In this document: in pieces, positions 45,993 through 61,111 of the stretch
Numbering within the stretch: the first letter of the stretch is position 1
How the letters are laid out: every line of letters begins with the position of its first letter
NCBI GenBank assembly: GCA_018266555.1
Contig: JAFEAF010000010.1
Coordinates: 107,889-171,888, forward strand
Length of the DNA: 64,000 nucleotides
From: Bacteroidota bacterium
GTDB lineage: Bacteria > Bacteroidota > Bacteroidia > Chitinophagales > Chitinophagaceae
Direction: 5' to 3'
Program-made: the position numbers and the translations under genes
The notes under the pieces: model-generated
What the model was told of the DNA's origin: nothing
What the model saw: the letters and a program-made list of their open reading frames with translations, nothing else
Database searches by the model: none

Positions 45993-46613
45993 TTACTTTT
46001 TATAATCGCTGATATTAATTCTTTCCCCGCAAAACCGGTATTCCACTTCATCATTACTACTTACTATTACCAATCGGTTTTTGCAGAAATCATGTATCAG
46101 TTGACTATAAAGTGAAATCCCCGCCGCATCCAAATTGGTGCAGGGTTCATCTAATAATACGGCAGGAACATCAGAAAAAATCGCCTGGGCAAGCCGAACT
46201 CTCTGTTTCATTCCCGAAGAAAAATTGCGTATCTGCTTACCCTGTGCTTTGTCTAATCCAATGAATGAAATAATTTTTTCAATAGTTAACCCGGATAAAA
46301 AAGGCTTAAAGCCCCGGTGAAAGTTCAGAAACTCTTTTAATGTCATTTCTTCCACCACTTCAAGGTACGGAGCACATAAAGAAACATGTTTGTAAACTTC
46401 TTCAACAGAACATTGCTCATTAAGTATTGAATATTGGATTTTTCCTTCGCTTATTTGCATGGACCCACCGAGTACTTGCAACAGAGTTGATTTCCCTGAA
46501 CCATTTGGACCGATGATGGCATAAGATTTTCCTGCTTCAAAAGTGTAAGTCAGATGACGAAAGATCCAGTCCCGGTTGAAACGTTTCCCGGTATCAGTCA
46601 ACGATACCTTCAT
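45993..46613 (-). CDS. ABC transporter ATP-binding protein
   Basis: The protein has 206 residues. Walker A is IIGPNGSGKSTLL (about 31-43), the signature is FSSGMKQRVRLAQA (about 130-143), and Walker B is AVLLDEPCTNLD, with the glutamate present. The start at 46613 is chosen because the frame upstream is inside lpxA. The gene overlaps the lpxA 3' end by 20 bases, so the two are coupled. There is no membrane partner gene nearby, and the short length is like CcmA or LptB-type ATPases. A role in exporting lipid or heme is possible but not shown. Confidence 0.82.
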   Translation of the reverse strand: MKVSLTDTGKRFNRDWIFRHLTYTFEAGKSYAIIGPNGSGKSTLLQVLGGSMQISEGKIQYSILNEQCSVEEVYKHVSLCAPYLEVVEEMTLKEFLNFHRGFKPFLSGLTIEKIISFIGLDKAQGKQIRNFSSGMKQRVRLAQAIFSDVPAVLLDEPCTNLDAAGISLYSQLIHDFCKNRLVIVSSNDEVEYRFCGERINISDYKK

Positions 46614-47400
46614 CACCGTTAGTTTTAGAGAAACGTTTAATAATACCTCTTTGTGAGTTTCGGATGAATTGTACAATTTCATCTCTCTCATCCGTAGCTG
46701 CAAATTCTTCTTCTAAATATTCAACGGCCTGAGTAGTATTCATTCCATTATTATAAATGATCCTGAAAATATCCAGAATATGATTGATTTTATCTATACT
46801 GAATCCTCGTCTTTTCAAACCAATTGAATTGACTCCGGCATAGGATAAAGGAGTTCGTCCGGCTTTAATATAAGGTGGAACATCTTTACTTACCAGTGAA
46901 CCGCCGCTGATAAATGAATGCTGGCCGATACTGACAAATTGATGAACAGCACACATTCCACCTAACGCTACCCAATCGCCAATGGTAACATGGCCTGCTA
47001 CCTGGGTGTTGTTGCTCATAATGCAGTTATCGCCTACAATACAGTCATGAGCCAAATGGCAATAAGCCATAAGCAGGCAATTATTTCCAACACTTGTTTT
47101 CTCTTTTTCTTTCGTGCCCCGGTTTATTGTAACAAATTCCCTGATTGTAGTATTATCACCAATAAAAACGTTGGAGTATTCTCCCTGATATTTGAGATCC
47201 TGAGGGATGGCAGAAATTACGGCTCCGGGGAAAATGCGACAGTTTCTGCCTATCCTGGCCCCTTCCATGATGGTTACATTGGAACCAACCCAGGTACCTT
47301 CTCCGATTTCAACATCCTGGTGAATTACGGTGAAAGGATCCACTTTCACATTTGTAGCTAACCTGGCATTCGGATGAATATATGCATGTGGATGAATCAT
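46594..47400 (-). CDS. lpxA: UDP-N-acetylglucosamine acyltransferase
   Basis: This is the first enzyme of lipid A synthesis; it transfers a 3-hydroxyacyl group from ACP to UDP-GlcNAc. The protein has 268 residues, the usual length, starting at 47400 (MIHPHAYIHPNARLATN). The left-handed beta-helix hexapeptide repeats run from about 3 to 190. The catalytic histidine segment NCLLMAYCHLAHDCIVGDNC is present, and the C-terminal helices contain the GLKRRGFS segment. The gene is not in the usual lpxD/lpxC-fabZ cluster but is coupled to an ABC ATPase. Confidence 0.93.
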   Translation of the reverse strand: MIHPHAYIHPNARLATNVKVDPFTVIHQDVEIGEGTWVGSNVTIMEGARIGRNCRIFPGAVISAIPQDLKYQGEYSNVFIGDNTTIREFVTINRGTKEKEKTSVGNNCLLMAYCHLAHDCIVGDNCIMSNNTQVAGHVTIGDWVALGGMCAVHQFVSIGQHSFISGGSLVSKDVPPYIKAGRTPLSYAGVNSIGLKRRGFSIDKINHILDIFRIIYNNGMNTTQAVEYLEEEFAATDERDEIVQFIRNSQRGIIKRFSKTNGDEGIVD

Positions 47401-47417
47401 GTAATAAATTATAAAAA

Positions 47418-47447
47418 CCTCCGCCCGGGCGGAGGCGTGCAAAGTTA
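47418..47447 (-). promoter_or_regulatory. lpxA promoter -7 box and 18-base palindrome in the leader
   Basis: On the minus strand TAACTTTG (47447-47440) is a perfect TAnnTTTG box. Just downstream lies the perfect palindrome of two 9-base arms, CCTCCGCCC and GGGCGGAGG (47418-47435), then TTTTT. The predicted transcription start falls inside or just before the palindrome, so the lpxA mRNA would begin with this hairpin, 17 bases upstream of the ATG. Confidence 0.6.
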
Positions 47448-47568: not shown

Positions 47569-48510
47569 ATGCATCAACCACAGGATATATTAACGTTAGC
47601 GTATAAGCAAACCCCTATGCTGGGGGAGTGGGAATTGTTGTATGAAAAAGAACGGCAGATCCCCGGCTCAGTTCAGTATGTTATTAAAAGGTATCAGCGG
47701 AATCAACAATGGAGTATTGACGATATAGGCATGATGGTTTACCACTATGAAAAGGAAGATCCAGGGAAAAATTACTTCGAATTGAAATTCTGTGTAAGTG
47801 GGAATGTGTATTGTCGTCAAAAAGATACTGAATGTGATCGTTGCAAATTCAGCCAGTCGAAAACTTGTGTTGAAAAAGCGGAGAGTGTAGATGTGTTGAG
47901 TTTTCGGTTTTCACCGGTGCATTTATCTCAGTTTGTAAAGCCCCGTCATACGAATGATACTTTGGCAGAAGATATTTTAAATTTTAAGCACCATTCTTCT
48001 TTTACCAAAATGATACCGCTTTGTGGTAAAACAAGATCGGTAATTGAAGGGCTCTTGAATCATAATTTCACAGATAGTCTTGAAAATATTTACATCAATG
48101 CCCAAACACAGATGCTGCTTTTATTCTCTCTGGATTGCATGCTGGGGGAAAAAGAACTGGATGTTATCAACTGTAAATTCCTTGCCAATGAAGCAGACCG
48201 GGAAAAAATATCCCGTGCCAGGGAAATACTCATCGAACATATTGGTGAGCCTATCACCATTAAAGAACTCAGTCGCAAAGTGGCGATCAACGAATGTTAT
48301 TTGAAAAAAGGTTTCAAAGAAATGTTTGGTACCACCATTTTCGATTTTTATCAAAGCCAGCGTATGGAGCATGCCCGTTATTTATTGTATGAAAAAGGAT
48401 TGAGTGTTACTGAAGTCTCCCTGATGCTCGGTTATTCTTCTATTTCACATTTTTCCACTGCATTTAAAAAACATACCGGGTTGAAACCTTGTGAATTGTT
48501 GCTTCGGTAG
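47569..48510 (+). CDS. AraC family transcriptional regulator with Cys cluster
   Basis: The protein has 313 residues. The C-terminal ~100 residues are an AraC HTH pair (EPITIKELSRKVAINECYLKKGFKEMFGTTIFDFYQSQRM, then SVTEVSLMLGYSSISHFSTAFKKHTGLKP). The N-terminal part (about 1-190) has a Cys cluster at 75, 82, 89, 92 and 100 (YCRQKD-TECDRCKF-SQSKTC) that could bind metal or sense redox. It sits directly upstream of and in the same direction as the CusA/CusB operon, with an inverted repeat between, so it is the likely metal-responsive regulator of that operon. A decayed copy of its 3' half lies beyond the operon (55447-55865). Confidence 0.88.
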   Translation: MHQPQDILTLAYKQTPMLGEWELLYEKERQIPGSVQYVIKRYQRNQQWSIDDIGMMVYHYEKEDPGKNYFELKFCVSGNVYCRQKDTECDRCKFSQSKTCVEKAESVDVLSFRFSPVHLSQFVKPRHTNDTLAEDILNFKHHSSFTKMIPLCGKTRSVIEGLLNHNFTDSLENIYINAQTQMLLLFSLDCMLGEKELDVINCKFLANEADREKISRAREILIEHIGEPITIKELSRKVAINECYLKKGFKEMFGTTIFDFYQSQRMEHARYLLYEKGLSVTEVSLMLGYSSISHFSTAFKKHTGLKPCELLLR

Positions 48511-48540
48511 TTTCAGCAATGATACGGGTATTAAATTTCT

Positions 48541-48570
48541 AATATAGTCCTATACTTTTTACACTATATT
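48541..48570. promoter_or_regulatory. Inverted repeat upstream of the metal-efflux operon
   Basis: A perfect 8-base inverted repeat, AATATAGT (48541-48548) and ACTATATT (48563-48570), with a 14-base spacer. It lies 18 bases before the GTG of the DUF6660 gene and overlaps where the promoter -33 to -10 region would be. A near-match -7 box TTATTTTG is at 48574-48581. It is a plausible operator for the AraC-type or another metal regulator. Confidence 0.5.
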
Positions 48571-48588
48571 CTTTTATTTTGCAATCAG

Positions 48589-48903
48589 GTGAAACCTTTT
48601 AGTATTATAATAAGTTTTCTGATATTGACTTTACACTGCATTCCATGTGGTGATAATGTTTTTGCATTCGGGGAAGGAAAAATAAAATCAGAAATCTCCC
48701 AATCCAGTTCCAACAGGGAACCTTTACATTCTGATGCCTGTGCCCCGTTTTGCACTTGTTCCTGCTGTGCAGGGTTTTCAATACATCAATATTCTGCTGT
48801 TTTTAATTATACACCGGTTAGCGGAGTTACTTATTTTTCTTCTTATGCTCCCGGTGATTTAATAGAAGTATCGCTTCCCATTTGGCAACCCCCTCAATTG
48901 TAA
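48589..48903 (+). CDS. DUF6660 family small Cys-rich secreted protein
   Basis: The protein has 104 residues starting at GTG 48589. A signal peptide (about 1-25) with a cut around HCIPCG/DN is followed by the Cys-rich motif DACAPFCTCSCCAGFS at about 49-64, and a Pro-rich C-terminus (IWQPPQL). This pattern fits DUF6660, a Bacteroidota family that occurs before CusA/CzcA metal-efflux operons. It may bind Cu/Zn in the periplasm or deliver it to the pump, but that role is an inference from the cysteines and the neighbourhood. Confidence 0.75.
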   Translation: MKPFSIIISFLILTLHCIPCGDNVFAFGEGKIKSEISQSSSNREPLHSDACAPFCTCSCCAGFSIHQYSAVFNYTPVSGVTYFSSYAPGDLIEVSLPIWQPPQL

Positions 48904-48914
48904 ACTCCTTTTTT

Positions 48915-48956
48915 ACCGGAAATGTTTTCATAGCCTCACCGGAAATGTATTCTATG
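48915..48956 (+). repeat. Pair of imperfect direct repeats before the cusA-like gene
   Basis: ACCGGAAATG begins both copies (48915 and 48938, 23 bases apart), each followed by a similar TTCxT stretch. The pair lies in the 201-base gap between the DUF6660 gene and the CusA-like gene. It could be a regulator site or a remnant of a local duplication. Confidence 0.55.
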
Positions 48957-49104
48957 AAACGATTTGTGAACTTATAAGTTTATGACTTTTTTCAGGAAAC
49001 AAGAAGAGTAGGGTACTCACAATTTCTCATTCCGAGATTCATTGCTTTTACGCTTAAACTTTTTTCTGAAATCAAAGAGGAAGAAAAATCTCAAAAAAAT
49101 TCAA

Positions 49105-52100
49105 ATGCTGAATCGCATCATCCAATTTAGTATAAAACAAAAATTCATTATAGGCTTACTGACGATTGGCCTTATTATTTGGGGAATATGGAGTGCCACT
49201 AAACTTCCTATAGACGCTGTACCCGATATTACCAATAACCAGGTACAGGTGATCACCGTGGCTCCTTCTCAGGCAGCGCTGGATATAGAAAGACTGGTTA
49301 CTTTTCCCGTTGAGCAAACCATGACAACCATACCCGGGATAAAGGAGATGAGAAGTTTTTCCCGTTTTGGTCTTTCAGTAGTTACCATTGTATTCAGTGA
49401 TAAAACGGATGTGTATTGGGCCAGGCAGCAGGTCAACGAACGAATATCCATTGCTAAAAACCAGATACCGCCAGGCGTGGGAAATCCTGAAATGGCACCT
49501 ATTACAACGGGGTTGGGTGAAATATACCAATATATTGTACGGCCCAAAAAGGGATATGAAAAAAAATATACAGCCATGGATCTTCGGACAATCCAGGACT
49601 GGATCATTCGCCGCCAATTATTAGGAACTCCCGGTGTTGCAGATGTTGCAAGTTTCGGAGGTTATCTTAAGCAATATGAGATAGCAATAGATCCGGATAA
49701 ATTAAGAAGCTACAATCTTAGTATTAGTGATTTGTTTACCGCTCTTGAACGTAACAATCAAAATACAGGCGGTGCTTATATTGATCATAAGCCACATGCA
49801 TATTTTATACACAGCGAAGGATTAATTACTTCCATAGATGAGATTAATAAGATAGTGGTAAAAAGCACAACGCAGGGAATACCAATTCTGATAAGAGATA
49901 TTGCAGAGGTTCGGCCGGGCCATGCAACAAGATACGGGGCTATGACCTATAACAATGAGGGGGAAGTAACCGGCGCCGTTACCATGATGCTGAAGGGAGA
50001 AAATTCCAATGCAGTGGTAAACCGGGTGAAAAAAAGAATAAACCAAATTGAAAAAACATTACCGGAAGGCTTGCAGATTGATTCTTTTCTTGATCGCAGC
50101 GAATTGGTAGGGAGAGCTGTAGGGACGGTTGAAAAAAATCTTATCGAAGGAGCACTGATCGTAATTTTTGTACTGGTATTATTTCTTGGCAATTTACGGG
50201 CAGGATTACTGGTAGCATCAGTTATTCCGCTAAGCATGCTGTTTGCTATGGGCCTTATGAATTTGTTTGGAGTGAGTGGTAACCTGATGAGCTTAGGGGC
50301 TATTGATTTTGGTTTGATAGTAGATGGAGCTGTTATAATAATAGAATCCGTACTACACAGGATAACGCAGAGTAATACTCATCAACAGGGGCCAGTCAAG
50401 TTATCTTCTTCTCAAATGAACGACGAAGTTTATAGTTCTGCCAGTAAGATGATGAACTCGGCATCATTCGGCCAGATTATTATTCTTGTTGTGTATTTAC
50501 CCATATTGGCACTTGTGGGTATAGAAGGAAAAATGTTTAAACCCATGGCGCAAACAGTAGCATTTGCCATACTGGGAGCTTTCCTGTTGTCGCTAACTTA
50601 TGTGCCCGTGATGAGTACATATTTTTTGAGTAAAAAAACCAGCCACAAAAAAAATTTTTCAGATCGTATGATGATTTATTTTCAGCGACTTTATAAACCA
50701 GTTATAATTGGAGCATTGAAAAGAAAATTTATTGTGGTACTCAGTGCGGTTGTATTGTTTGTAATAAGCCTCGTAATTTTTATCCGCATGGGCGGGGAAT
50801 TTATTCCTACTCTTGATGAAGGTGATTTTGCAGTGGAGACAAGAGTACTGACAGGGAGCAGCCTTACAGAAACCATCGAAGCTGCACAAAAAGGTGCTGC
50901 ACTTTTATTGAAAGAATATCCGGACGAGGTAAAAGAAGTGGTGGGGAAAATTGGCTCTTCAGAAATTCCAACGGACCCTATGCCTATCGAATCGAGTGAC
51001 ATGATGGTTATATTAACTCAAAAGACAAAATGGAAAAAAGCGAAAAACCGGGAAGAACTATCTGATAAAATGGCTAAATCATTGTCTGTGATTCCGGGTG
51101 TGACTTTTGGATTTCAGCAACCTATTCAGATGCGGTTTAATGAATTGATGACTGGCGTACGACAGGATGTTGCCATTAAAATTTTTGGAGAAGACCTCGA
51201 TAAACTTTCTTTACTGGCTGATCAAACCGGAAAAATTGCTTCTGGTATTACAGGAACAAAAGATATTTATGTAGAGCAGGTAACCGGGCTGCCGCAAATT
51301 ATCATTAAAATTAACCGGGATGAAGTTGCCAAATATGGCCTGGATGTAGAAACGATCAACAGGAATATCAATATAGCTTTTGCGGGGCAGGCTGCCAGTG
51401 TAGTATATGAAGGAGAAAGAAAGTTTGATCTTGTCGTTCGTTTGCAACAGGCAAGCCGGCAAAATATCGGAGATGTAAGTAATTTGTATATCACAACACC
51501 AACGGGTAACCAGGTTCCTTTAAGCCAGCTGGCTGATGTTCAATTTAAAGTGGGGCCCAATCAAATTCAACGGGAAGATGCAAAGCGAAGAATCATTGTC
51601 GGTTTCAATGTCCGGGGCCGTGATGTAGCCAGTGTTGTACAAGAATTACAGGAAAAAATAACCACACAGGTAAAAATGCCACCAGGATATTATACCACTT
51701 ATGGCGGCCAGTTTCAAAACCTGCAGGAAGCGAATGCAAGATTATCAGTCGCTGTGCCGGTTGCATTAACGCTTATATTTCTTCTATTGTTTTTTGCTTT
51801 TAACTCATTTAAACATGCTTTGTTAATCTTTACTGCAATTCCTATGGCATCTATTGGCGGCGTATTTTCTTTATTGATACGTGGGATGCCTTTCAGCATT
51901 TCGGCCGGTGTAGGATTTATTGCATTGTTCGGGGTAGCTGTATTGAATGGAATTGTTTTGATCGCTGAATTTAACCGGCTGAAAAAAGAAGGTATCAGTG
52001 ATTTAAAAGAAATAATATTGAAAGGAACCGAATTAAGACTGAGGCCGGTTTTAATGACTGCTTCTGTTGCATCACTGGGTTTCCTTCCTATGGCTATAGC

Positions 52101-53484
52101 TACCAGCGCCGGGGCTGAAGTACAAAGACCGCTGGCTACTGTAGTCATCGGCGGGCTGATTACGTCAACACTGTTGACGCTGATTGTTCTTCCGAGTTTG
52201 TATATCTATTTTGAAAAAATAAAAATCAGGAAAGTGAAACTATATAAGATTCCGCTCGTGCTATTGCCGTTGCTGATCATATTTATTTCGACAAAGGCGC
52301 AGCAACCAAATGGTTTGACAATGGAGCAGGCTGTTCAGCTGGCGCTTGCTAATAATAAGCTGATGCGATCTGCCGATTTGGAAAAACAATACCAGCAACA
52401 ACTTAAATCATCGGTTGGGTATGTCGGAAAAACAGATTTCAATGTAATGTTAGGCCAATATAATAGTTATAGCTGGGACGATAATTATTTTTCTGTTTCA
52501 CAAACCATTCCCAATCCAAAAAATTTCTCAGCTCAGAAAAAGCTGGAACAAGCATTGATCAACTCGGCAGATGCCAGAATAAAAATGACGGCCAATGAGC
52601 TGGCTATGAAAGTAAAAGAAACGTATTATATTTTACTTTACCTCTATAGCAGGGAAAAATTATTGTATCAGCAGGACAGCATCTTCAGCGAATTTTTGAA
52701 AGCAGCAACGCTGCGGTTAAAAACCGGCGAAACAAAATTGCTGGAAAAAACTACTGCGGAAACTCAATTAAATGAAATCAGGAATTTGGTAAAACAAAAC
52801 AATTCAGATCTTCTTGCTTTCAATTATTCCCTGCAACAACTAACAGGTAACGAAACACCGGTATCCATAGTACAGGAAAGTTTGCAGGAAAGAGTTTTTA
52901 CTTTGATTGATGATACGGCGCTTATCTCGCAAAATCCTTATTTGAGGTATTGGCAAGAACAAATTGCTGTATCTAAAGAAGAGAGAGAAGTTATAGCAGC
53001 ACAGCGGCTTCCGGATTTTACTTTGGGTTATTTTAATCAAAGTTTAATAGGTAACCCGCTTAATAGCAGTAGTACAAAATTTGCAACTGCCGGAAACCGG
53101 TTTATGGGACTCAATGCCGGTATTTCAATTTCGATATTTAATCGCCCGCTGAAAGCAAGAATAAAAGCGGCAGAAATAAACAGGCAAGTAGCCGAAACCC
53201 GGTTTGATTATAATCAGTCTGTATTAAAAAATGAATGGCAACAGGCATGGGAAGAATATCAGAAAAATAAAAGCAGCATTACTTATTATAAAACTTCTGC
53301 TTTGCCTAATGCAGATTTAATGTTATACCAGGCCCAAAAAGGTTACCGGGCGGGAGAAACGGATTATGCAGAATACCTACTGGCAGTACGCAGTGCTTTA
53401 CAGATAAAAGAAATGTACCTGAAAACGCTGAATGCACTTAATCAAAGCATCTTCAGGCTGGAATACCTTGCCGGAAACCCATAA
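49105..53484 (+). CDS. CusA/CzcA heavy-metal RND pump fused to a TolC-like outer-membrane domain
   Basis: The protein has 1459 residues starting at the ATG at 49105 (MLNRIIQFSIKQKF). Residues 1-~1045 are an HME-type RND pump with 12 TMs. The TM4 signature has Asp401 and Asp407 in IDFGLIVDGAVIIIES, typical of metal pumps and unlike the DD pair of drug pumps. A second hydrophobic segment at about 1048-1063 (LVLLPLLIIFISTKAQQ), which looks like an internal signal sequence, precedes a TolC/OEP domain (about 1070-1459; LTMEQAVQLALANNKLMRSA and TGETKLLEKTTAETQL). Such fusions are known in Bacteroidota and put the inner-membrane pump and outer-membrane channel in one chain. The metal (Cu/Ag or Co/Zn/Cd) is not determinable with confidence from the sequence. 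Confidence 0.93.
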   Translation: MLNRIIQFSIKQKFIIGLLTIGLIIWGIWSATKLPIDAVPDITNNQVQVITVAPSQAALDIERLVTFPVEQTMTTIPGIKEMRSFSRFGLSVVTIVFSDKTDVYWARQQVNERISIAKNQIPPGVGNPEMAPITTGLGEIYQYIVRPKKGYEKKYTAMDLRTIQDWIIRRQLLGTPGVADVASFGGYLKQYEIAIDPDKLRSYNLSISDLFTALERNNQNTGGAYIDHKPHAYFIHSEGLITSIDEINKIVVKSTTQGIPILIRDIAEVRPGHATRYGAMTYNNEGEVTGAVTMMLKGENSNAVVNRVKKRINQIEKTLPEGLQIDSFLDRSELVGRAVGTVEKNLIEGALIVIFVLVLFLGNLRAGLLVASVIPLSMLFAMGLMNLFGVSGNLMSLGAIDFGLIVDGAVIIIESVLHRITQSNTHQQGPVKLSSSQMNDEVYSSASKMMNSASFGQIIILVVYLPILALVGIEGKMFKPMAQTVAFAILGAFLLSLTYVPVMSTYFLSKKTSHKKNFSDRMMIYFQRLYKPVIIGALKRKFIVVLSAVVLFVISLVIFIRMGGEFIPTLDEGDFAVETRVLTGSSLTETIEAAQKGAALLLKEYPDEVKEVVGKIGSSEIPTDPMPIESSDMMVILTQKTKWKKAKNREELSDKMAKSLSVIPGVTFGFQQPIQMRFNELMTGVRQDVAIKIFGEDLDKLSLLADQTGKIASGITGTKDIYVEQVTGLPQIIIKINRDEVAKYGLDVETINRNINIAFAGQAASVVYEGERKFDLVVRLQQASRQNIGDVSNLYITTPTGNQVPLSQLADVQFKVGPNQIQREDAKRRIIVGFNVRGRDVASVVQELQEKITTQVKMPPGYYTTYGGQFQNLQEANARLSVAVPVALTLIFLLLFFAFNSFKHALLIFTAIPMASIGGVFSLLIRGMPFSISAGVGFIALFGVAVLNGIVLIAEFNRLKKEGISDLKEIILKGTELRLRPVLMTASVASLGFLPMAIATSAGAEVQRPLATVVIGGLITSTLLTLIVLPSLYIYFEKIKIRKVKLYKIPLVLLPLLIIFISTKAQQPNGLTMEQAVQLALANNKLMRSADLEKQYQQQLKSSVGYVGKTDFNVMLGQYNSYSWDDNYFSVSQTIPNPKNFSAQKKLEQALINSADARIKMTANELAMKVKETYYILLYLYSREKLLYQQDSIFSEFLKAATLRLKTGETKLLEKTTAETQLNEIRNLVKQNNSDLLAFNYSLQQLTGNETPVSIVQESLQERVFTLIDDTALISQNPYLRYWQEQIAVSKEEREVIAAQRLPDFTLGYFNQSLIGNPLNSSSTKFATAGNRFMGLNAGISISIFNRPLKARIKAAEINRQVAETRFDYNQSVLKNEWQQAWEEYQKNKSSITYYKTSALPNADLMLYQAQKGYRAGETDYAEYLLAVRSALQIKEMYLKTLNALNQSIFRLEYLAGNP

Positions 53485-53505
53485 AAAATTTTATAAATAA
53501 CTGAA

Positions 53506-54708
53506 ATGAAAAAAATAATGTCAATGAAATTCAGTGTTATTCTGTTAGGAGCTATTGTTTTATTTTCTTCCTGTGACAGTAATAAAAAAACCGAAACAGA
53601 AAACCAGGCCGAGCAAAAGCATACTGCTGCAAGTAATGAAGTTACGCTAACCAATGAACAGTTTAAGACTGCCGGTATTACTTTCGGTACAGCACAGTTG
53701 AAACAAATTAGCGGAACTTTTAAAGCAAATGGTTTGCTGGATGTGCCGCCGCAGCAAAAAGTAAGTATTTCCGTACCCATGGGTGGATTTTTGAAAAGTA
53801 CAAATTTACTCCAGGGCAAAAGGGTAAAGAAGGGTGAACTGATTGCCGTCATAGAAAACCCGGAATACATTCAGATGCAGCAGGATTATCTGGAAGCAAA
53901 AAGCCAGTATGAATATGCACAGGCAGATTATGAACGGCAGCAGGAATTGGCGAAGGAAAATATTAATGCACAAAAGACATTGCAGCAATCAAAAACAAAT
54001 TTCCAGGCGCTAAGCGCAAAGGTCAGCGCCCTGAAAGAAAAAATCAAAGTTTCCGGAATAAATTTAGCAGCAGTAGAAAACGGAACGATACAGTCCTCCA
54101 TCAATATTTATTCACCCATCAATGGCTTTGTTACGGAGGTCAATGTAAATATTGGCAAATTTGTAAACCCTTCCGATATTCTTTTTGAAATTGTAGATAC
54201 AGAACATTTACATGCGGAGTTAACTGTTTTTGAAAAGGATATTCCTAAGTTGCAAATTGGACAAAAAGTTCGGTTCATACTTGCTAATGAAACTTCGGAA
54301 AGAACGGCTACCGTGTACCTGATTGGGCGGGAGATTGATGTAAATCGCTCGGTTCGTATACACTGCCATATTGATAAAGCTGATATCCACCTGTTACCGG
54401 GAATGTATCTGAAAGCAATAGTGGAAACAGGCCAGAACCGGGTTCTGGCTTTGCCAGATGAAGCCTTAGTTGATTTTGAAGGACAGAAATACATTTTTAT
54501 ATTGTCAGAGGAAGCGGGCTACAAAAATGGAAATAACAACCAGGCAGAATATCATTTTAAAATGATAGCGGTTCAAATTGGCAATAGTGATGAAGGATTT
54601 ACCGGAGTAGCATTGCCGGAAGGAATGGACCAGGCAAATGTGGTAATAAAAGGGTCGTATGCATTATTAAGCCAGATGAAAAACAGAAAAGAAGGTGAAG
54701 ACCATTAA
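53506..54708 (+). CDS. Heavy-metal RND adaptor (CusB/CzcB-like), lipoprotein
   Basis: The protein has 400 residues. A lipoprotein signal peptide ends with the lipobox LFSSC (Cys23). The barrel-sandwich half LLDVPPQQKVSISVPMGGFLKSTNLLQGKRVKKGELIAVIENPEYIQMQQDYLEAKSQ is followed by a coiled coil (about 120-175). A second half IYSPINGFVTEVNVNIGKFVNPSDILFEIVDT and a beta-barrel (HAELTVFEKDIPKLQIGQKVRFIL) come next. There is no methionine-rich N-terminal metal site like that of CusB. It bridges the pump and TolC part, and follows the fusion gene by 21 bases. Confidence 0.9.
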   Translation: MKKIMSMKFSVILLGAIVLFSSCDSNKKTETENQAEQKHTAASNEVTLTNEQFKTAGITFGTAQLKQISGTFKANGLLDVPPQQKVSISVPMGGFLKSTNLLQGKRVKKGELIAVIENPEYIQMQQDYLEAKSQYEYAQADYERQQELAKENINAQKTLQQSKTNFQALSAKVSALKEKIKVSGINLAAVENGTIQSSINIYSPINGFVTEVNVNIGKFVNPSDILFEIVDTEHLHAELTVFEKDIPKLQIGQKVRFILANETSERTATVYLIGREIDVNRSVRIHCHIDKADIHLLPGMYLKAIVETGQNRVLALPDEALVDFEGQKYIFILSEEAGYKNGNNNQAEYHFKMIAVQIGNSDEGFTGVALPEGMDQANVVIKGSYALLSQMKNRKEGEDH

Positions 54709-54775
54709 TGGTAGTCTAGTAAATTGAATTCACGAGGGAATACCGAAATTACAGTTCAAATACTTTTTAAAACTA

Positions 54776-55390
54776 ATGCTATCTATACTTACAGGAAGCC
54801 TGTTAATTAGTTTGCTTCATGCAATAATACCCAATCACTGGCTGCCGGTACTGGCTATCGGACGTAAAGAGAACTGGAGCCTGTCCGAAACGACGAAGGT
54901 TACTTTTATTGCCGGGCTGGCTCATGTATTAAGTACAGTAATTATTGGCATTGTACTCGGAATTATCGGGGCGGAACTGCAAAAATCTATTGAACAGTTT
55001 GCCGGCGTCATTGCACCCGCTATCCTTATTTTGCTTGGATTTTATTTTATTCAACAACATTACCGGCACCATCATTTTCACATCAATAAGCATCAACTTG
55101 AAAATAAGCAAAAATCAAAATTGATTACTGCATTGGTATTAGCTATGTTTCTTTCGCCTTGTATGGAAATTGAAGGCTATTTTTTATTAGCAGGGACAAA
55201 AAGTCGCTGGTTTTTATTTTCAATGGTCATCATGTATTCCGTCATTTCACTTGGCGGAATGTTGTTGTGGATACGATTAGCATACAAAGGGTTGATTAAA
55301 CTTAACTGGCACTCACTGGAACATAATGCAGGAATCATAACCGGACTGATTTTAATTGCAACCGGCATTGTTTCATTTCTTATCAGTTAA
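54776..55390 (+). CDS. NicO/HupE/UreH-like membrane protein with His-rich loop
   Basis: The protein has 204 residues and about six membrane helices. An N-terminal LHAIIPNHWLPVLAIGRKENWS motif and a His-rich cytoplasmic or periplasmic loop (HYRHHHFHINKHQ, ~100-112) resemble nickel/cobalt or heavy-metal transporters of the RcnA/NicO and UreH superfamilies. The gene sits 67 bases after the CusB-like gene on the same strand, and is likely the last gene of the metal-efflux operon. It could export the metal to the periplasm for the Cus-type pump. Family placement is moderately certain; the metal is unknown. Confidence 0.68.
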   Translation: MLSILTGSLLISLLHAIIPNHWLPVLAIGRKENWSLSETTKVTFIAGLAHVLSTVIIGIVLGIIGAELQKSIEQFAGVIAPAILILLGFYFIQQHYRHHHFHINKHQLENKQKSKLITALVLAMFLSPCMEIEGYFLLAGTKSRWFLFSMVIMYSVISLGGMLLWIRLAYKGLIKLNWHSLEHNAGIITGLILIATGIVSFLIS

Positions 55391-55446
55391 ATTATTCATT
55401 CTATGAGTCGGGATATTTAATTAACTCCCCAATACCCTTGCAATTT

Positions 55447-55865
55447 TCTGCGTCAATACATAAGCCCGGATGCTGTTGATGTACTCATTGGATTGTATAG
55501 TAGGTGAAAATGAACCTGATGTGGCAACTGTTAGTTCCATGCCAAAGAAGCGGATCATAAAAAATATTCCGGCCGAAGAAACTTTCATCGAATATATAAG
55601 TGTATCCTTCACTATAAAAGAACTCAGGCGTAAAGCGACCAACAACGAGTGTTATTAAAAAAAGGGTTCAAAGAAATATTTGGCACACCTATTTTTGATT
55701 TTTATCAGAGCTAACGGATGGAGCATGCCCGGTAATTATTGTTTGAAAAAGGACTTATTGTAACAGAAGTGTCATTATTACTCGGTTATTCTTCCGTTTC
55801 GCATTTTTCTACTGCATTTTTGAAAGATACCAGGTTGAAGCCTTATGAATCGTTGCTTCGGCAAA
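55447..55865 (+). pseudogene. Decayed fragment of an AraC-family regulator (copy of the gene at 47569)
   Basis: Translated in segments, the region matches the last ~140 residues of the AraC-type regulator upstream of the metal operon: the CIVGENEPDV segment, TIKELRRKATNNECY and the final HTH with VTEVSLLLGYSSVSHFSTAF-like codons. It is broken by stop codons. TAA replaces the leucine codon after NECY, a one-base deletion follows in the A-run, TAA replaces a glutamine codon in the YQSQRM segment and TAA replaces a tyrosine after ARY. The 5' half of the gene is absent. The remnant sits after the NicO-like gene, so the intact gene and this copy bracket the whole metal-efflux operon. Confidence 0.88.
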
Positions 55866-55942
55866 AGTACATTCAACTCATATTTTTTCCTACTTCGTAA
55901 GTCGGTTTTCCGATACCGTAAATGAAGCTGTGTCTGCACAGA

Positions 55943-55950
55943 TAGTTTTG
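55943..55950 (+). promoter_or_regulatory. -7 box of the porin-Rieske-imelysin operon
   Basis: TAGTTTTG matches TAnnTTTG perfectly, 19 bases before the ATG at 55970. It lies after the decayed AraC fragment, so this operon has its own promoter. No -33 TTG was identified. Confidence 0.5.
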
Positions 55951-55969
55951 CAAAAATTAATTGCAAAAA

Positions 55970-57199
55970 ATGAAGAGAGCTTTAATACTACTGCTACCTA
56001 TATTAATATTTCAATATTCGGGATACACCCAGTACAGAACAAATGCACAACAACTTATTACAACGAACGAAGACTCATTACATGCTGGGATTACTAAAAA
56101 CAAAACAGTGATTTCCGGTTACGGAAGCGCTTTTTATCAAAGGGATTTTAATTTCAAACAATCCATAGTTACCCTGGAAAGAGCTGTACTTTTCGTCGGA
56201 CATCAATTCAGCAAAAAAATATCTTTTTTCTCAGAACTTGAACTGGAAAATGCTAAAGTGGAAGGCGGTGAACCCGGCGGCGAAATTTCAATGGAACAGG
56301 CATTCCTAAAATTTAATCTTACATCAAATCAATATATCGTTGCCGGACTGTTTGTTCCCCGCATTGGAATACTTAATGAAAATCATCTGCCCGTAAATTT
56401 TAATGGTGTTGAAAGACCTATTGTTGAGCAAATTGTTATTCCTGCTACATGGAGAGAGTTGGGAATAGGGTTTTATGGCTCTTCAAACCGGCTTCCTTTG
56501 AATTATTCGATAGCAATACTTAATGGTTTGGATGGAGGTCATTTTGTACACGGCAGTGGTATTCGTGAGGGAAAAGCCGAAGGCAGCAATGCATCTGCCA
56601 ACAATCTTGCGATAACGGCATCAGTACAATATTCTATCAGCGATTTTAAATTTCAGTTAGCAGGATATATGGGCGGCACTGTGGCTACAAACAAATATAA
56701 AGCCGACAGTCTTGGTTTAAACAGCGGTGCATTTGGTACACCTTTATACCTGGGAGAAGCAAATATGCAATATTCAAAAAATGGATTTTCATCAAAACTG
56801 CTTGGCGCTTCCATCATTTATCCCGAAGCAAATAAAGTGAATGCAGCTTATGCAAACAATGTAGCAAAAACTATGTACGGAGCTTATGCAGAAATCGGGT
56901 ATGATTGGTTATATCCGAAGAAAAAAAAGGCGCAGTTTATTACGTTTGCCCGTTGTGAGATTCTTGATCTTAATTCAAATATCCCGACGAATGCTATTTA
57001 TGACGGTACATTAAAGCAAACTCATATCATAACAGGATTTAGTTACCTGCCCGTTGCCAATGTAGTCATTAAAGCAGATCTGCGATTGTTGCATACCGGT
57101 CCTCAAAACCCGGCGTTAATTATCAATCCCGCACCCAATGCGTTGGCATACCGTCAATCGAATCAGTTTTTAAATTTTGGTATCGGTTATTCTTTTTAA
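55970..57199 (+). CDS. Outer-membrane beta-barrel porin-like protein
   Basis: The protein has 409 residues. I use the ATG at 55970, which starts the signal peptide MKRALILLLPILIFQYSG; an upstream TTG at 55961 is also in frame. The mature part is rich in alternating strands and ends in FGIGYSF, a C-terminal aromatic typical of outer-membrane barrels. Segments such as KFNLTSNQYIVAGLFVPRIGILNENHLP look like a porin of the Bacteroidota phosphate/acidic-substrate type. It is the first gene of an operon with the Rieske protein, imelysin and di-heme oxidoreductase. The substrate is unknown; by context it may admit a metal or metal chelate. Confidence 0.72.
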   Translation: MKRALILLLPILIFQYSGYTQYRTNAQQLITTNEDSLHAGITKNKTVISGYGSAFYQRDFNFKQSIVTLERAVLFVGHQFSKKISFFSELELENAKVEGGEPGGEISMEQAFLKFNLTSNQYIVAGLFVPRIGILNENHLPVNFNGVERPIVEQIVIPATWRELGIGFYGSSNRLPLNYSIAILNGLDGGHFVHGSGIREGKAEGSNASANNLAITASVQYSISDFKFQLAGYMGGTVATNKYKADSLGLNSGAFGTPLYLGEANMQYSKNGFSSKLLGASIIYPEANKVNAAYANNVAKTMYGAYAEIGYDWLYPKKKKAQFITFARCEILDLNSNIPTNAIYDGTLKQTHIITGFSYLPVANVVIKADLRLLHTGPQNPALIINPAPNALAYRQSNQFLNFGIGYSF

Positions 57200-57211
57200 T
57201 TGTAAACAGTA

Positions 57212-57649
57212 ATGGAAAGAAAAGAATTTATACGCTCTTCGTGCAACGCCTGTTTATTATTGGCGGCCGGTTATTTATTACCAACGGTTGCCGGTTGCGT
57301 TTCCGGTTATTCTGTTTTCAAAACATCAGTCGTGAACAATCTAGTCACAATGCCAATAGCAATGTTTGATAAATCAACATTACAACTTGTTCGGCCTAAA
57401 GGGTGGTTGTATGACATTGCTGTTGAAAAAAGAACAGATGGCTCTTTTGCTGCATTATTATTACAATGCACACACCAGGAAAATCAACTGAAAATACAAG
57501 GAAACGGATTTCATTGCTCTCTTCATGGAAGCGAGTTTGATAAAAACGGCAATGTGACCAAAGGGCCTGCCGAAAGACCACTGCAGCAGTATAAAACTTT
57601 TGTGGACAAGGATCAGATAATTATTCAGATTTTAAAGTCACCTCAATAA
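57212..57649 (+). CDS. Rieske [2Fe-2S] protein, membrane-anchored or exported
   Basis: The protein has 145 residues. A hydrophobic N-terminus with a twin-residue-like start (ERKEFIRSSCNACLLLAAG) looks like a Tat- or lipoprotein-type export signal, with Cys at 30 (VAGC). The Rieske ligands are all present: Cys86-x-His88 in CTHQ and Cys102-x2-His105 in CSLHG, with the usual 13-residue spacing. It resembles the small single-domain Rieske proteins that carry electrons to oxidoreductases, not the bc1 subunit. Its stop overlaps the ATG of the imelysin gene by one base. Confidence 0.88.
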   Translation: MERKEFIRSSCNACLLLAAGYLLPTVAGCVSGYSVFKTSVVNNLVTMPIAMFDKSTLQLVRPKGWLYDIAVEKRTDGSFAALLLQCTHQENQLKIQGNGFHCSLHGSEFDKNGNVTKGPAERPLQQYKTFVDKDQIIIQILKSPQ

Positions 57650-58710
57650 TGAAACGAAACTGTTTTATCATTTTTATCAGCACAGCACTTAGCATATCCT
57701 GTAATAAAGCCCCGGGCACAATTGTTACAGAAGATTTTTCGGTATTAGAGCAAACTGTTCTCAATGATTTTACAAATAATGTGGCATTAAACAGTTACCT
57801 CAACCTAAGCGTAAAAGCAACTGTTTTAAACACCGCCCTTCAGAATCTTGATGCCAATACAACCGATGCAAATCTTAGCATTGCAAGGCAGGCATGGAAA
57901 GATATGCGGACAGTGTGGGAGCAAAGCGAAGGATTCCTTTTTGGCCCGGTTGAAGACAATGACTATGATCCTAACATGGATACCTGGCCTACAGATTATA
58001 TTCAAATGGATTCTTTACTTGCAAGCGGAAATACTTTGGATGTTTCGGATATTCAAAACCTCACTTTATCGCTGCGAGGGTTTCATCCCATTGAATACAT
58101 CATTTTCGGGAACCAGGGAAGTAAAACAGCAGCGCAATTAACAGCAAGACAGAAATTGTATATGAGAAACCTGTCTACAGATATTATGGGTACCTGCAAT
58201 GACTTGTATTTAAGCTGGAGTTCAGCCCCCGTGAATTTTGCACAACATGTAATTACTGCAGGTAAAGGAAGCACAAAATATGCGAAGCGGCAAGAAGTAT
58301 ATATGGCAATTGTTGGAGCACTAAGCGGTATATGTGAAGAAGTGGGTGAAGGAAAAATGAAAGAGCCTTTTGATGCAAAAGATCCGCAATTGGTTGAATC
58401 ACCTTATTCCGGAAACTCCACAACAGATTTTAAAAATAACATCATTGGTATCAGGAATGTGTATATGGGAGTGAATGGAGGTAAAGGATTGAAAGACCTG
58501 GTAGCTGCAAAAAATAAATCATTGGATAATACTATACAGAGCCAGATCGCCGCAGCTATCAACTCATTTGATAATATTACTCAGCCTTATGAGGATGCGA
58601 TCATCAATCAAAGAACACAAATACAGCAAACCATGAACCTGCTTGGTGATTTAAAAGAAACAATAGAGAATAAGCTTATTCCATTTATTCAGCAATATAT
58701 TTTAGATTAA
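57649..58710 (+). CDS. Imelysin family protein (M75-like), lipoprotein
   Basis: The protein has 353 residues. A lipoprotein signal peptide ends in ISC at Cys18. The family motif GxHxxE is present as Gly144-Phe-His146-Pro-Ile-Glu149 (RGFHPIEYIIFG), along with the helical bundle segments of the imelysin fold. Imelysins are surface or periplasmic, iron-regulated proteins with a possible metal or heme-binding site; despite the former name peptidase M75, the proteolytic motif is not established. It is translationally coupled to the Rieske gene and 13 bases before the di-heme gene. Confidence 0.9.
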   Translation: MKRNCFIIFISTALSISCNKAPGTIVTEDFSVLEQTVLNDFTNNVALNSYLNLSVKATVLNTALQNLDANTTDANLSIARQAWKDMRTVWEQSEGFLFGPVEDNDYDPNMDTWPTDYIQMDSLLASGNTLDVSDIQNLTLSLRGFHPIEYIIFGNQGSKTAAQLTARQKLYMRNLSTDIMGTCNDLYLSWSSAPVNFAQHVITAGKGSTKYAKRQEVYMAIVGALSGICEEVGEGKMKEPFDAKDPQLVESPYSGNSTTDFKNNIIGIRNVYMGVNGGKGLKDLVAAKNKSLDNTIQSQIAAAINSFDNITQPYEDAIINQRTQIQQTMNLLGDLKETIENKLIPFIQQYILD

Positions 58711-58723
58711 TAAATTGAAGTCA

Positions 58724-60100
58724 ATGAGAAAAACGGGGTTGGTATTAAGTATCACGGTGCTCAGCATTGCTGTTTTTACAATGTGCAATAAAGCATCCCT
58801 TTTTCCTGAGAGCGGTTATGATGACAGGCTGAGCGGAGGATTTGCAACGGTATTTGACGAAACATCTAAAGCATTTTCTCACCCGGTAAATGGACTGAGT
58901 GATCATGATGCACATATTCATGAACTTGGTGATGCTGCTTTTGAACAAACTTTTGTAACAGCGCCGGCCCCGGTCAACAGTGGACTGGGTACAATTTTCA
59001 ATAACGTTTCCTGCATCTCCTGCCATCATAACGACGGAAAAGGAACTCCGACTTTAGGATTTACCACATCATCCATGTTGTTACGCATAAGTATCCCGGG
59101 CATTGATACTCATGGAGGTCCCTTAGATGCGCCGGGCTTTGGCACACAATTGCAGGACCAGGCTATTTTTGGAAAACAACCTGAAGTGAATACTTCTATT
59201 AATTATTCTGATAAAATCGTTACTTATCCTGATGGCTCTTCAGTTGTTTTGCGCAATCCATCCTATACTATAACAAATTCCTATATTCCATTACCTGCCG
59301 GTTATATGATTTCACCAAGGATGGCGCCGCCTGTTTTTGGCGCAGGTTTACTGGAAAATATCCCTGAGAGTACCATTCTTTCATTTGCTGACGAGAATGA
59401 TGCCAATGGTGATGGAATAAGCGGAAAACCCAACTATGTTTATAACAGCTATTCAGGAAAAACTGAATTAGGAAGATTTGGGTTAAAAGCAAATAACCCG
59501 AATATTTTATTACAGGTAGCAGGAGCATACCAGCAGGATATAGGAATCACCAATTATGTATTCAAAAATGAAAGTAGCGCTGGTCAATCTCAATCTGACG
59601 GGTTGAATGACGATCCCGAACTTCCGGATAGCATATTAAATGCTGTGGCTTTTTATGTTCGAACGCTTGCTGTGCCTGCAAGGAGGAATACAACAGATCC
59701 TGATGTCATGGCAGGAGAAAAAATATTTACACAGATAAATTGCAGCGGTTGTCACAAGCCAACTGTACAGACAGGAGTGAATGTTGCGTATCCATATCTT
59801 TCCAATCAGCGGATACATCCTTACACGGATCTTTTGCTTCATGATATGGGCGATGCGTTGGCTGATAATCGTCCCGATTTTCTTGCTACAGGAAAAGAAT
59901 GGCGGACTGCTCCATTGTGGGGCATTGGCTTATTCCAAAAAACAAATGGTGTCCCGTTTTATTTGCATGATGGAAGAGCCAGAACACTGGAAGAAGCTAT
60001 ACTCTGGCATGGTGGTGAAGCTGAAAAAAGCAAACAGCAGTTCATGCAATTAAGTCAATCAGACAGAAGCAAGCTTATAAAATTTTTAAACTCACTGTAA
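58724..60100 (+). CDS. Di-heme oxidoreductase, DUF1111 (thiol oxidoreductase) family, lipoprotein
   Basis: The protein has 458 residues. I use the ATG at 58724; an in-frame TTG at 58715 is upstream. The signal peptide has a lipobox MCN (Cys21). The two CxxCH heme sites are C97-I-S-C100-H101 and C340-S-G-C343-H344. The segments EWRTAPLWGIGL and YLHDGRARTLEEAILWHGGEA are the C-terminal hallmark of DUF1111, as is FGRFGLKA-like GRFGLKANNP. It is related to the MauG/cytochrome c peroxidase fold but lacks confirmed peroxidase activity. It would receive electrons from, or give them to, the Rieske protein of the same operon. Confidence 0.9.
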   Translation: MRKTGLVLSITVLSIAVFTMCNKASLFPESGYDDRLSGGFATVFDETSKAFSHPVNGLSDHDAHIHELGDAAFEQTFVTAPAPVNSGLGTIFNNVSCISCHHNDGKGTPTLGFTTSSMLLRISIPGIDTHGGPLDAPGFGTQLQDQAIFGKQPEVNTSINYSDKIVTYPDGSSVVLRNPSYTITNSYIPLPAGYMISPRMAPPVFGAGLLENIPESTILSFADENDANGDGISGKPNYVYNSYSGKTELGRFGLKANNPNILLQVAGAYQQDIGITNYVFKNESSAGQSQSDGLNDDPELPDSILNAVAFYVRTLAVPARRNTTDPDVMAGEKIFTQINCSGCHKPTVQTGVNVAYPYLSNQRIHPYTDLLLHDMGDALADNRPDFLATGKEWRTAPLWGIGLFQKTNGVPFYLHDGRARTLEEAILWHGGEAEKSKQQFMQLSQSDRSKLIKFLNSL

Positions 60101-60169
60101 AGTTTCAATCTTAAATTTTCTCCAAAAACAGTTTCACCTAAAGTCATTCGAGTTGTCTTCCTGATGATT

Positions 60170-61057
60170 TTAAAATGTTTTTTTCAGATCAGGATTAGTG
60201 ATGAGAATATAGTCCCCCAGCTTACTGAATTTTTCAAACGCCTGCGGGTCAGAACTGTTATATGATACATCGCTAACACTAGCAATATTCAGTATCCTTA
60301 TTTTTTTACTTCTCATTTTCAATTGTGCAGCAGTGCCTAACTTTTCTGCAGTATGAAAACCGCCGACACAATGAAATATTTTATTGCCTTTATGGTTCCT
60401 ATGGTATTTATAAATACTATAACTCATGCCGGCATCCCAAAGATTCTGACTGTAATAAACATTGGGATTGGAACTACCGGGACTGCCCTGCATCACTTCT
60501 TCAAATTTTTCACGATAACGGCCGCTCAAGGTATCGTAAGGGAGCGGTGGCAGCAATTTCTTTGCTTCTTTTGATAAATTATCCAGGGAAGCCATACCCA
60601 ACCTGCTAACCATGCTTACATACCGGCGAGGAGTATTTGCAGCTATAACTTGAATATGATTTGTTTTTGCAAATTCAATCATGGGCCGGTAATCTTTATA
60701 ATTACTCCAAAGACGTACGTCTTTGGCAAAACGGTCTTCTGGAATAAATCCTTCTAAATATTCATTTAGCGGAAGCTGATTATCTGTTTCAAACATTTCA
60801 AGACTTAATGCAATTTTATCACCAAATCTATTATAAAGCCCTTTTAAGATTTCAGCTTCAAGAAAATGACAGGCACTGTCATTGTGTTCTTCACCGAAGA
60901 ACAGCACATCAGCCCTGGCACAATCAGAAATTATTTTGTCAATGGTTATGATCTGTTTAGTCCTTGTATTATAGATATTATAATTCGCTTCCATACTGTT
61001 TTGAGAAAATGAAAAACCAAAAGACAGCAGGAAAATACATAGTAGAAGGAATTTCAT
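60170..61057 (-). CDS. ChaN family heme/iron-associated protein
   Basis: The protein has 295 residues with a signal peptide (MKFLLLCIFLLSFGFSFSQ) starting at 61057; a TTG six codons upstream is also open. The core motifs FFGEEHNDSACH (about 49-60) and LSLEMFETDNQ, and the central helices around PMIEFAKTNH, match the ChaN/EreA-like fold. ChaN of Campylobacter binds heme in a cofacial dimer and is iron-regulated. It converges on the di-heme operon and lies just downstream of hemL, so it probably takes part in heme or iron handling. Confidence 0.82.
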   Translation of the reverse strand: MKFLLLCIFLLSFGFSFSQNSMEANYNIYNTRTKQIITIDKIISDCARADVLFFGEEHNDSACHFLEAEILKGLYNRFGDKIALSLEMFETDNQLPLNEYLEGFIPEDRFAKDVRLWSNYKDYRPMIEFAKTNHIQVIAANTPRRYVSMVSRLGMASLDNLSKEAKKLLPPLPYDTLSGRYREKFEEVMQGSPGSSNPNVYYSQNLWDAGMSYSIYKYHRNHKGNKIFHCVGGFHTAEKLGTAAQLKMRSKKIRILNIASVSDVSYNSSDPQAFEKFSKLGDYILITNPDLKKTF

Positions 61058-61111
61058 AACAATCAATTTCCGCAAATATCGGTGAGTGTACGAATAATCC
61101 GTTAAAAGTTT

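Follow-up and report, generated by a model that had tools for sequence, protein, structure and literature searches.

The window analysed here, a 64,000-nt stretch of a Bacteroidota genome (Chitinophagaceae), contains a dead, 5′-truncated copy of an AraC-type regulator gene at 55437-55861. We read this pseudogene, with a probability of roughly one half, as a recombination scar left by the entry of a metal-efflux block (block 1: DUF6660-CusAC-CusB-NicO-like) via a crossover anchored in AraC. A scar of this kind is recognised by a complete AraC gene on one side of the insert and a 3′ fragment, in the same orientation, on the other.

The AraC remnant and its surroundings

The genes of the locus, in order along the window, are as follows.

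46594-47442, minus strand: LpxA-like acyltransferase, divergent from AraC, the left neighbour in a conserved neighbourhood (we assume the name LpxA from the sequence, not from a family search)
47569-48510, plus strand: intact AraC-type regulator with a Cys-rich N-terminal part and a C-terminal HTH_18 domain (Pfam, E 1.4e-20); its orthologues adjoin LpxA
48589-48903, plus strand: small, Cys-rich DUF6660 protein that opens block 1 (Pfam, E 9.9e-8)
49042-53484, plus strand: RND metal-efflux pump fused to an outer-membrane factor, CusA-CusC type (Pfam ACR_tran and OEP)
53506-54708, plus strand: CusB-type membrane-fusion protein (Pfam)
54776-55390, plus strand: NicO/MntP-like membrane protein that closes block 1 (sub-threshold MntP match; relatives)
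55437-55861, plus strand: AraC pseudogene, 3′ half, approximately residues 171-313 (blastn, six-frame search, MAFFT alignment)
55961-57199, plus strand: porin-like protein that opens block 2 (operon conserved in other genomes); it has no Pfam match and 'porin' is a working label
57212-57649, plus strand: Rieske [2Fe-2S] protein (Pfam)
57649-58710, plus strand: imelysin, peptidase M75 (Pfam)
58715-60100, plus strand: di-haem oxidoreductase (Pfam DHOR)
60170-61075, minus strand: ChaN-like haem-binding protein, right border of a variable gap (Pfam Cofac_haem_bdg); it adjoins AraC in L038, L067 and L073

At the left edge, the minus-strand LpxA reading frame and an ABC transporter reading frame overlap by ~110 nt (46594-46703), which is probably a matter of start-codon choice.

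When the intact AraC gene was compared with the whole window by blastn, the remnant was the single further match, on the same strand (76.5% identity over 430 columns, E 9e-83). It represents the HTH-bearing 3′ half of the gene (HTH_18 covers residues 234-309 of the intact protein in Pfam); the 5′ half is gone, and the right end falls at the exact position of the intact AraC stop codon. There is no open frame: the aligned copy has four in-register stops (TAA at residues 179, 264 and 271; TAG at 203) and three small deletions (1, 2 and 1 nt in the MAFFT alignment; 6 gap columns in blastn), and a six-frame search placed one TGA, one TAG and three TAA within 55514-55861. Beyond the intact gene and the remnant, the next AraC resemblance in the whole genome is 40% over 75 residues. 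Most likely, the remnant has no present function.

A duplication that included flanking sequence was considered and rejected, there being no significant homology on either side of the remnant: equally good matches were given by 0.76 of shuffles downstream and by 0.075 of shuffles just upstream of 55437, where a candidate, decayed junction would lie.

The preliminary description had placed a same-orientation repeat of the HTH half of AraC after the NicO-like gene, with the efflux block between a live and a dead copy, and both the blastn match and the gene order bear this out. Its start for the remnant (55447) has to be moved ~10 nt to the left. The three TAA stops that it listed are there; its one-base deletion is replaced by the three deletions, and the TAG at residue 203 is added. 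As for the names given to block 1, Pfam supports DUF6660, CusA and CusB, whilst for 'NicO-like' there is just an MntP match below threshold (19.9 bits; cut-off 24.4).

Cargo turnover between AraC and ChaN

The pairing of AraC with a divergent LpxA was conserved in 59 of 116 AraC-bearing rows, a tally that includes duplicate rows of one locus and loci with short flanks. ChaN was also present in 17 of these 59 rows (12 distinct loci), and across the 12 loci the AraC-ChaN distance was 6-12 nt in three (L038, which is G003; L067; L073), 224 nt in one and 1.8-9.2 kb in eight. The three short cases are empty sites with no cargo between the two genes; in the congeneric G003 the block 1 operon is absent at this spot and the ends of AraC and ChaN lie a few bases apart. 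In the window the distance is ~11.7 kb (gap 48511-60169), filled by the two blocks.

Other relatives hold other cargo, for which the names, except those of DUF6660, CusA, CusC and CusB, are our assumptions from the sequences. L037 (G002) and L042 (G001) have DUF6660-CusAC-CusB with a P-type ATPase-like gene; L044, L065 and L078 have cytochrome-like genes; L051 and L066 have TonB-receptor-like genes; and further loci hold still others. The CusA block of the congeneric G001 and G002 is a different one in the same gap, with CusA 61-62% identical to that of the window. The nearest NicO-like protein (82-83%) is found in the AraC-ChaN gap of G340 (L044) amid unrelated genes; there was no CusA match in that gap. 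The AraC-ChaN gap is thus a site of cargo turnover in the family, empty in some relatives and variously filled in others. In L066, the start of a metal P-type ATPase-like gene (compare G001 and G002) is seemingly truncated directly before ChaN (L066:6350-6424); read by eye, this may perhaps be another scar of lost cargo.

Judged by kinship, block 1 is foreign when set beside the genes around it. The LpxA of the window is 88-92% identical to those of three congeners. The CusB protein is 35-37% identical to those of G001 and G002; its nearest relative among 394 family genomes is in G186 (72%), where CusA is 77% identical. In none of the three congeners did the porin gene have a match at E <= 1e-60. 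Because the kinship of the cargo differs from that of the LpxA neighbours and the porin gene lacks a congeneric match, both blocks probably came into the AraC-ChaN gap by transfer, the alternative being loss in the congeners.

We also looked for a donor arrangement, i.e. the AraC of another congener followed by the same block, and did not find it in the genomes examined. No AraC match was present beside the nearest block in a 19-kb stretch of G186, nor beside related blocks in four further regions (L290-L293); only less similar blocks follow AraC (G001, G002 and L105). On the left side, nothing clear emerged in the way of a divergence shift that would mark an imported AraC (EmrA, EmrB, ABC, LpxA and the AraC halves). 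Both results speak against the scar that we propose. There, G003 is the nearest genome by protein identity for all genes but the ABC gene. To the right, ChaN (60170-61075) has its closer match in G002 (84%), with G003 at 68%.

A model for the origin of the remnant

In the model that we favour, two diverged AraC copies would have met, one of them brought in with block 1. A crossover anchored in AraC, through which either a circle integrated by a single exchange or a piece joined by homology on one side and illegitimately on the other, would have produced a complete AraC upstream of block 1 and, downstream, the 3′ half of the other AraC, cut at the right edge of the block. The stranded 3′ half would then have decayed. 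The comparisons show the homology and damage of the remnant, its lineage, its uneven change across codon positions and the empty sites in relatives; that there was a crossover, which insertion came first and that the truncation coincided with the entry of block 1 is our inference. The second AraC could be either an in-genome duplicate or a congeneric copy joined by recombination, and the data fit both equally.

The remnant was probably once a working gene

At third positions, the intact AraC and the remnant differ by 0.403, much as the intact AraC and G003 do at the level of species (0.429). With a fixed 18-gene tree and the HKY model, the branch lengths at codon positions 1/2/3 were 0.234/0.136/0.416 for the remnant, 0.075/0.015/0.375 for G003 and 0.006/0.007/0.237 for the intact AraC. 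Counting only sites at which the intact AraC and three congeners agree, remnant-specific changes occurred at 31 of 241 sites at positions 1 and 2 and at 14 of 43 sites at position 3 (Fisher p 0.0026). The species-level change at third positions, together with the extra change at positions 1 and 2, indicates that the remnant still coded for protein during part, or even much, of the time since the two copies separated, and decayed afterwards. With small numbers and leaving third-position mutation bias aside, that history would comprise constrained change of roughly the amount that separates species and then approximately 0.12-0.16 neutral changes per site.

This codon-position result is equally compatible with an old in-genome duplicate that was kept functional, and such a duplicate remains a serious, if somewhat less probable, rival to the scar. 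Here AraC would have been duplicated in tandem long ago, the second copy would have worked, perhaps at the head of the porin-Rieske-imelysin-DHOR operon, and, after block 1 had entered between the two, the copy would have lost its 5′ half and decayed. The signal of past constraint and the sister relationship of the remnant to the window AraC (see below) agree with this history, as do the AraC relatives that precede the same porin operon in L107, L179, L181/L075 and L196. It requires, however, that two functional copies stayed together through most of the history of the remnant, whereas AraC is carried by 280 of 394 family genomes with one match in each of the 280, as counted at E <= 1e-75 with up to five candidates scored per genome and the table read by eye, a threshold that the remnant itself would fail. 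Because AraC is single in all of its carriers, two long-lived copies would be unusual.

Position of the remnant in the AraC phylogeny

By blastn, the remnant matches the window AraC at 297 bits and, next, a congeneric gene of G002 at 209 bits. In a tree of 104 rows the remnant and the intact AraC group together at 100/80 support, within a starred trio with G003. Placed on a backbone of full-length genes, with all 197 branches tried and the long-branch rows L027, L030 and L031 removed beforehand, the remnant had its best position beside the window AraC (AU 0.85); the next four placements were all in the genus cluster (2.0-2.9 lnL lower, AU 0.14-0.52) and were not rejected. These results rest on ~420 columns and the remnant has a long end branch. 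Rare shared bases were also tried as a test of sisterhood and were uninformative: seven states are common to the window AraC and the remnant, yet the distant L026 shares nine.

The four other genomes with an AraC of the same family upstream of the porin operon could instead mean that the remnant is a decayed private regulator, which would have come in from another part of the family together with the porin-Rieske-imelysin-DHOR operon. We consider this improbable. Placements within the L181/L107/L196 clade of porin-linked AraC genes were 17.7-19.8 lnL lower (KH p 0.0075-0.0136), and the best nucleotide match is to the window AraC by far more bits than to any other gene. The AU test rejected only part of these placements: values in that clade ran from 0.007 to 0.087, some placements (0.053 and 0.087) stay above rejection, and a joint clade of the remnant with the porin-linked AraC genes was not rejected (p 0.376). 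Taken on the sequence comparisons, the remnant is a member of the LpxA-linked AraC lineage at genus level and groups there, with the intact gene of the window as its nearest relative, rather than with the porin-linked genes.

A truncated duplicate that was dead on arrival, from a recent and simple tandem duplication in this genome, would account for the orientation and for the single neighbouring copy, but it is very unlikely, fitting poorly because codon-position change in the remnant is uneven, as is not expected of a copy that never coded, and its third positions have diverged almost as far as those of a separate species.

The preliminary description had suggested a tandem duplication, or insertion of the operon into a duplicated regulator gene. 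What survives of this is an origin that is local or internal to the lineage, as given by the tree and by the best placement, since the AraC copy here is indeed closest to the upstream one; a plain, always-dead duplicate does not survive the codon-position test. Among sister genomes, whose comparison it proposed, G003 lacks the operon at this spot.

AraC 3′-end pieces at other loci

To return to the scar that we favour, similar pieces occur at other AraC loci. The scan took in 151 distinct AraC genes for which 1.5 kb or more of downstream sequence was available and looked for same-strand repeats at E <= 1e-5; a second AraC piece was present at five of them: the window, L060, L265 (the G021 locus of L030), L266 (the G018 locus of L025) and L298. 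Apart from that of the window, the pieces are 43-86 nt long, and all five match the gene up to its 3′ end or to within 4 nt of it. A control scan of 17 other genes gave three pieces in 593 (HemF twice, imelysin once), likewise from 3′ ends. The AraC enrichment is modest (Fisher p 0.011), in a comparison in which the window is counted, the flanks are unequal and the window itself prompted the test. The L060 piece sits immediately ahead of ChaN, past a 1.7-kb insert, which is where the displaced end of a resident AraC would be expected.

Taking all genes together, same-strand 3′-end repeats of 24-86 nt were seen downstream of AraC, HemF and imelysin genes in L298, L265, L266, L060, L086, L338 and L185; with that of the window included, eight of eight match their gene up to its 3′ end or to within 5 nt of it.

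DISCUSSION

Partial gene duplication yields bacterial pseudogenes, in which a truncated, frameshifted copy stands beside its intact relative. The remnant differs from ordinary cases of this kind in its past coding constraint, which suggests that it was once a working gene. Judged by title, we found no paper on the AraC-remnant locus.

Two described systems resemble the scar proposed here. In Escherichia coli, duplication of a gene end by a single crossover has been observed in the laboratory, and the same source describes homology-facilitated illegitimate recombination from competent bacteria (PMC3240628). In that case an incoming molecule with a portion of a gene recombines into the resident gene, and complete and partial copies then flank the insert (PMC3240628), as we propose for the window. 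The event in the window would, however, be ancient, its copies are ~25% different and no donor was found. In the T6SS effector arrays of Vibrio, displaced 3′ gene ends occur and homology-facilitated illegitimate recombination has been proposed (PMC5361080). As in the proposed scar, a new module sits there behind a conserved anchor with the old 3′ material displaced downstream, but the immunity genes are retained (PMC5361080), whereas the displaced piece in the window is a dead half of a regulator gene.

The conserved, Cys-rich AraC with its changing cargo is the more interesting part of the locus than the remnant. Ahead of the HTH, the intact AraC (47569-48510) has a Cys-rich stretch, and a loose five-Cys pattern is present in 151 of 161 distinct orthologues; because this pattern is kept, it suggests a metal- or redox-sensing regulator. 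The 3′ end of AraC may even be a recurrent integration point in Chitinophagaceae, where metal and other cargo would be swapped in repeatedly behind the sensor gene, through recombination within its coding sequence, coming under the resident metal-responsive regulator, with leftover 3′ pieces marking past swaps; we regard this broader idea as unlikely, if worth stating.

The remnant itself is most likely a known kind of scar from ordinary genome turnover, and a single pseudogene matters little. It is a sign that the AraC-ChaN gap of this genome was rebuilt, and it illustrates a route by which an efflux block can come to lie behind an existing regulator. Were the 3′ end of AraC truly a recurrent entry point, it would be homology within a regulator gene, and not mobile elements, through which the family exchanges its metal operons.
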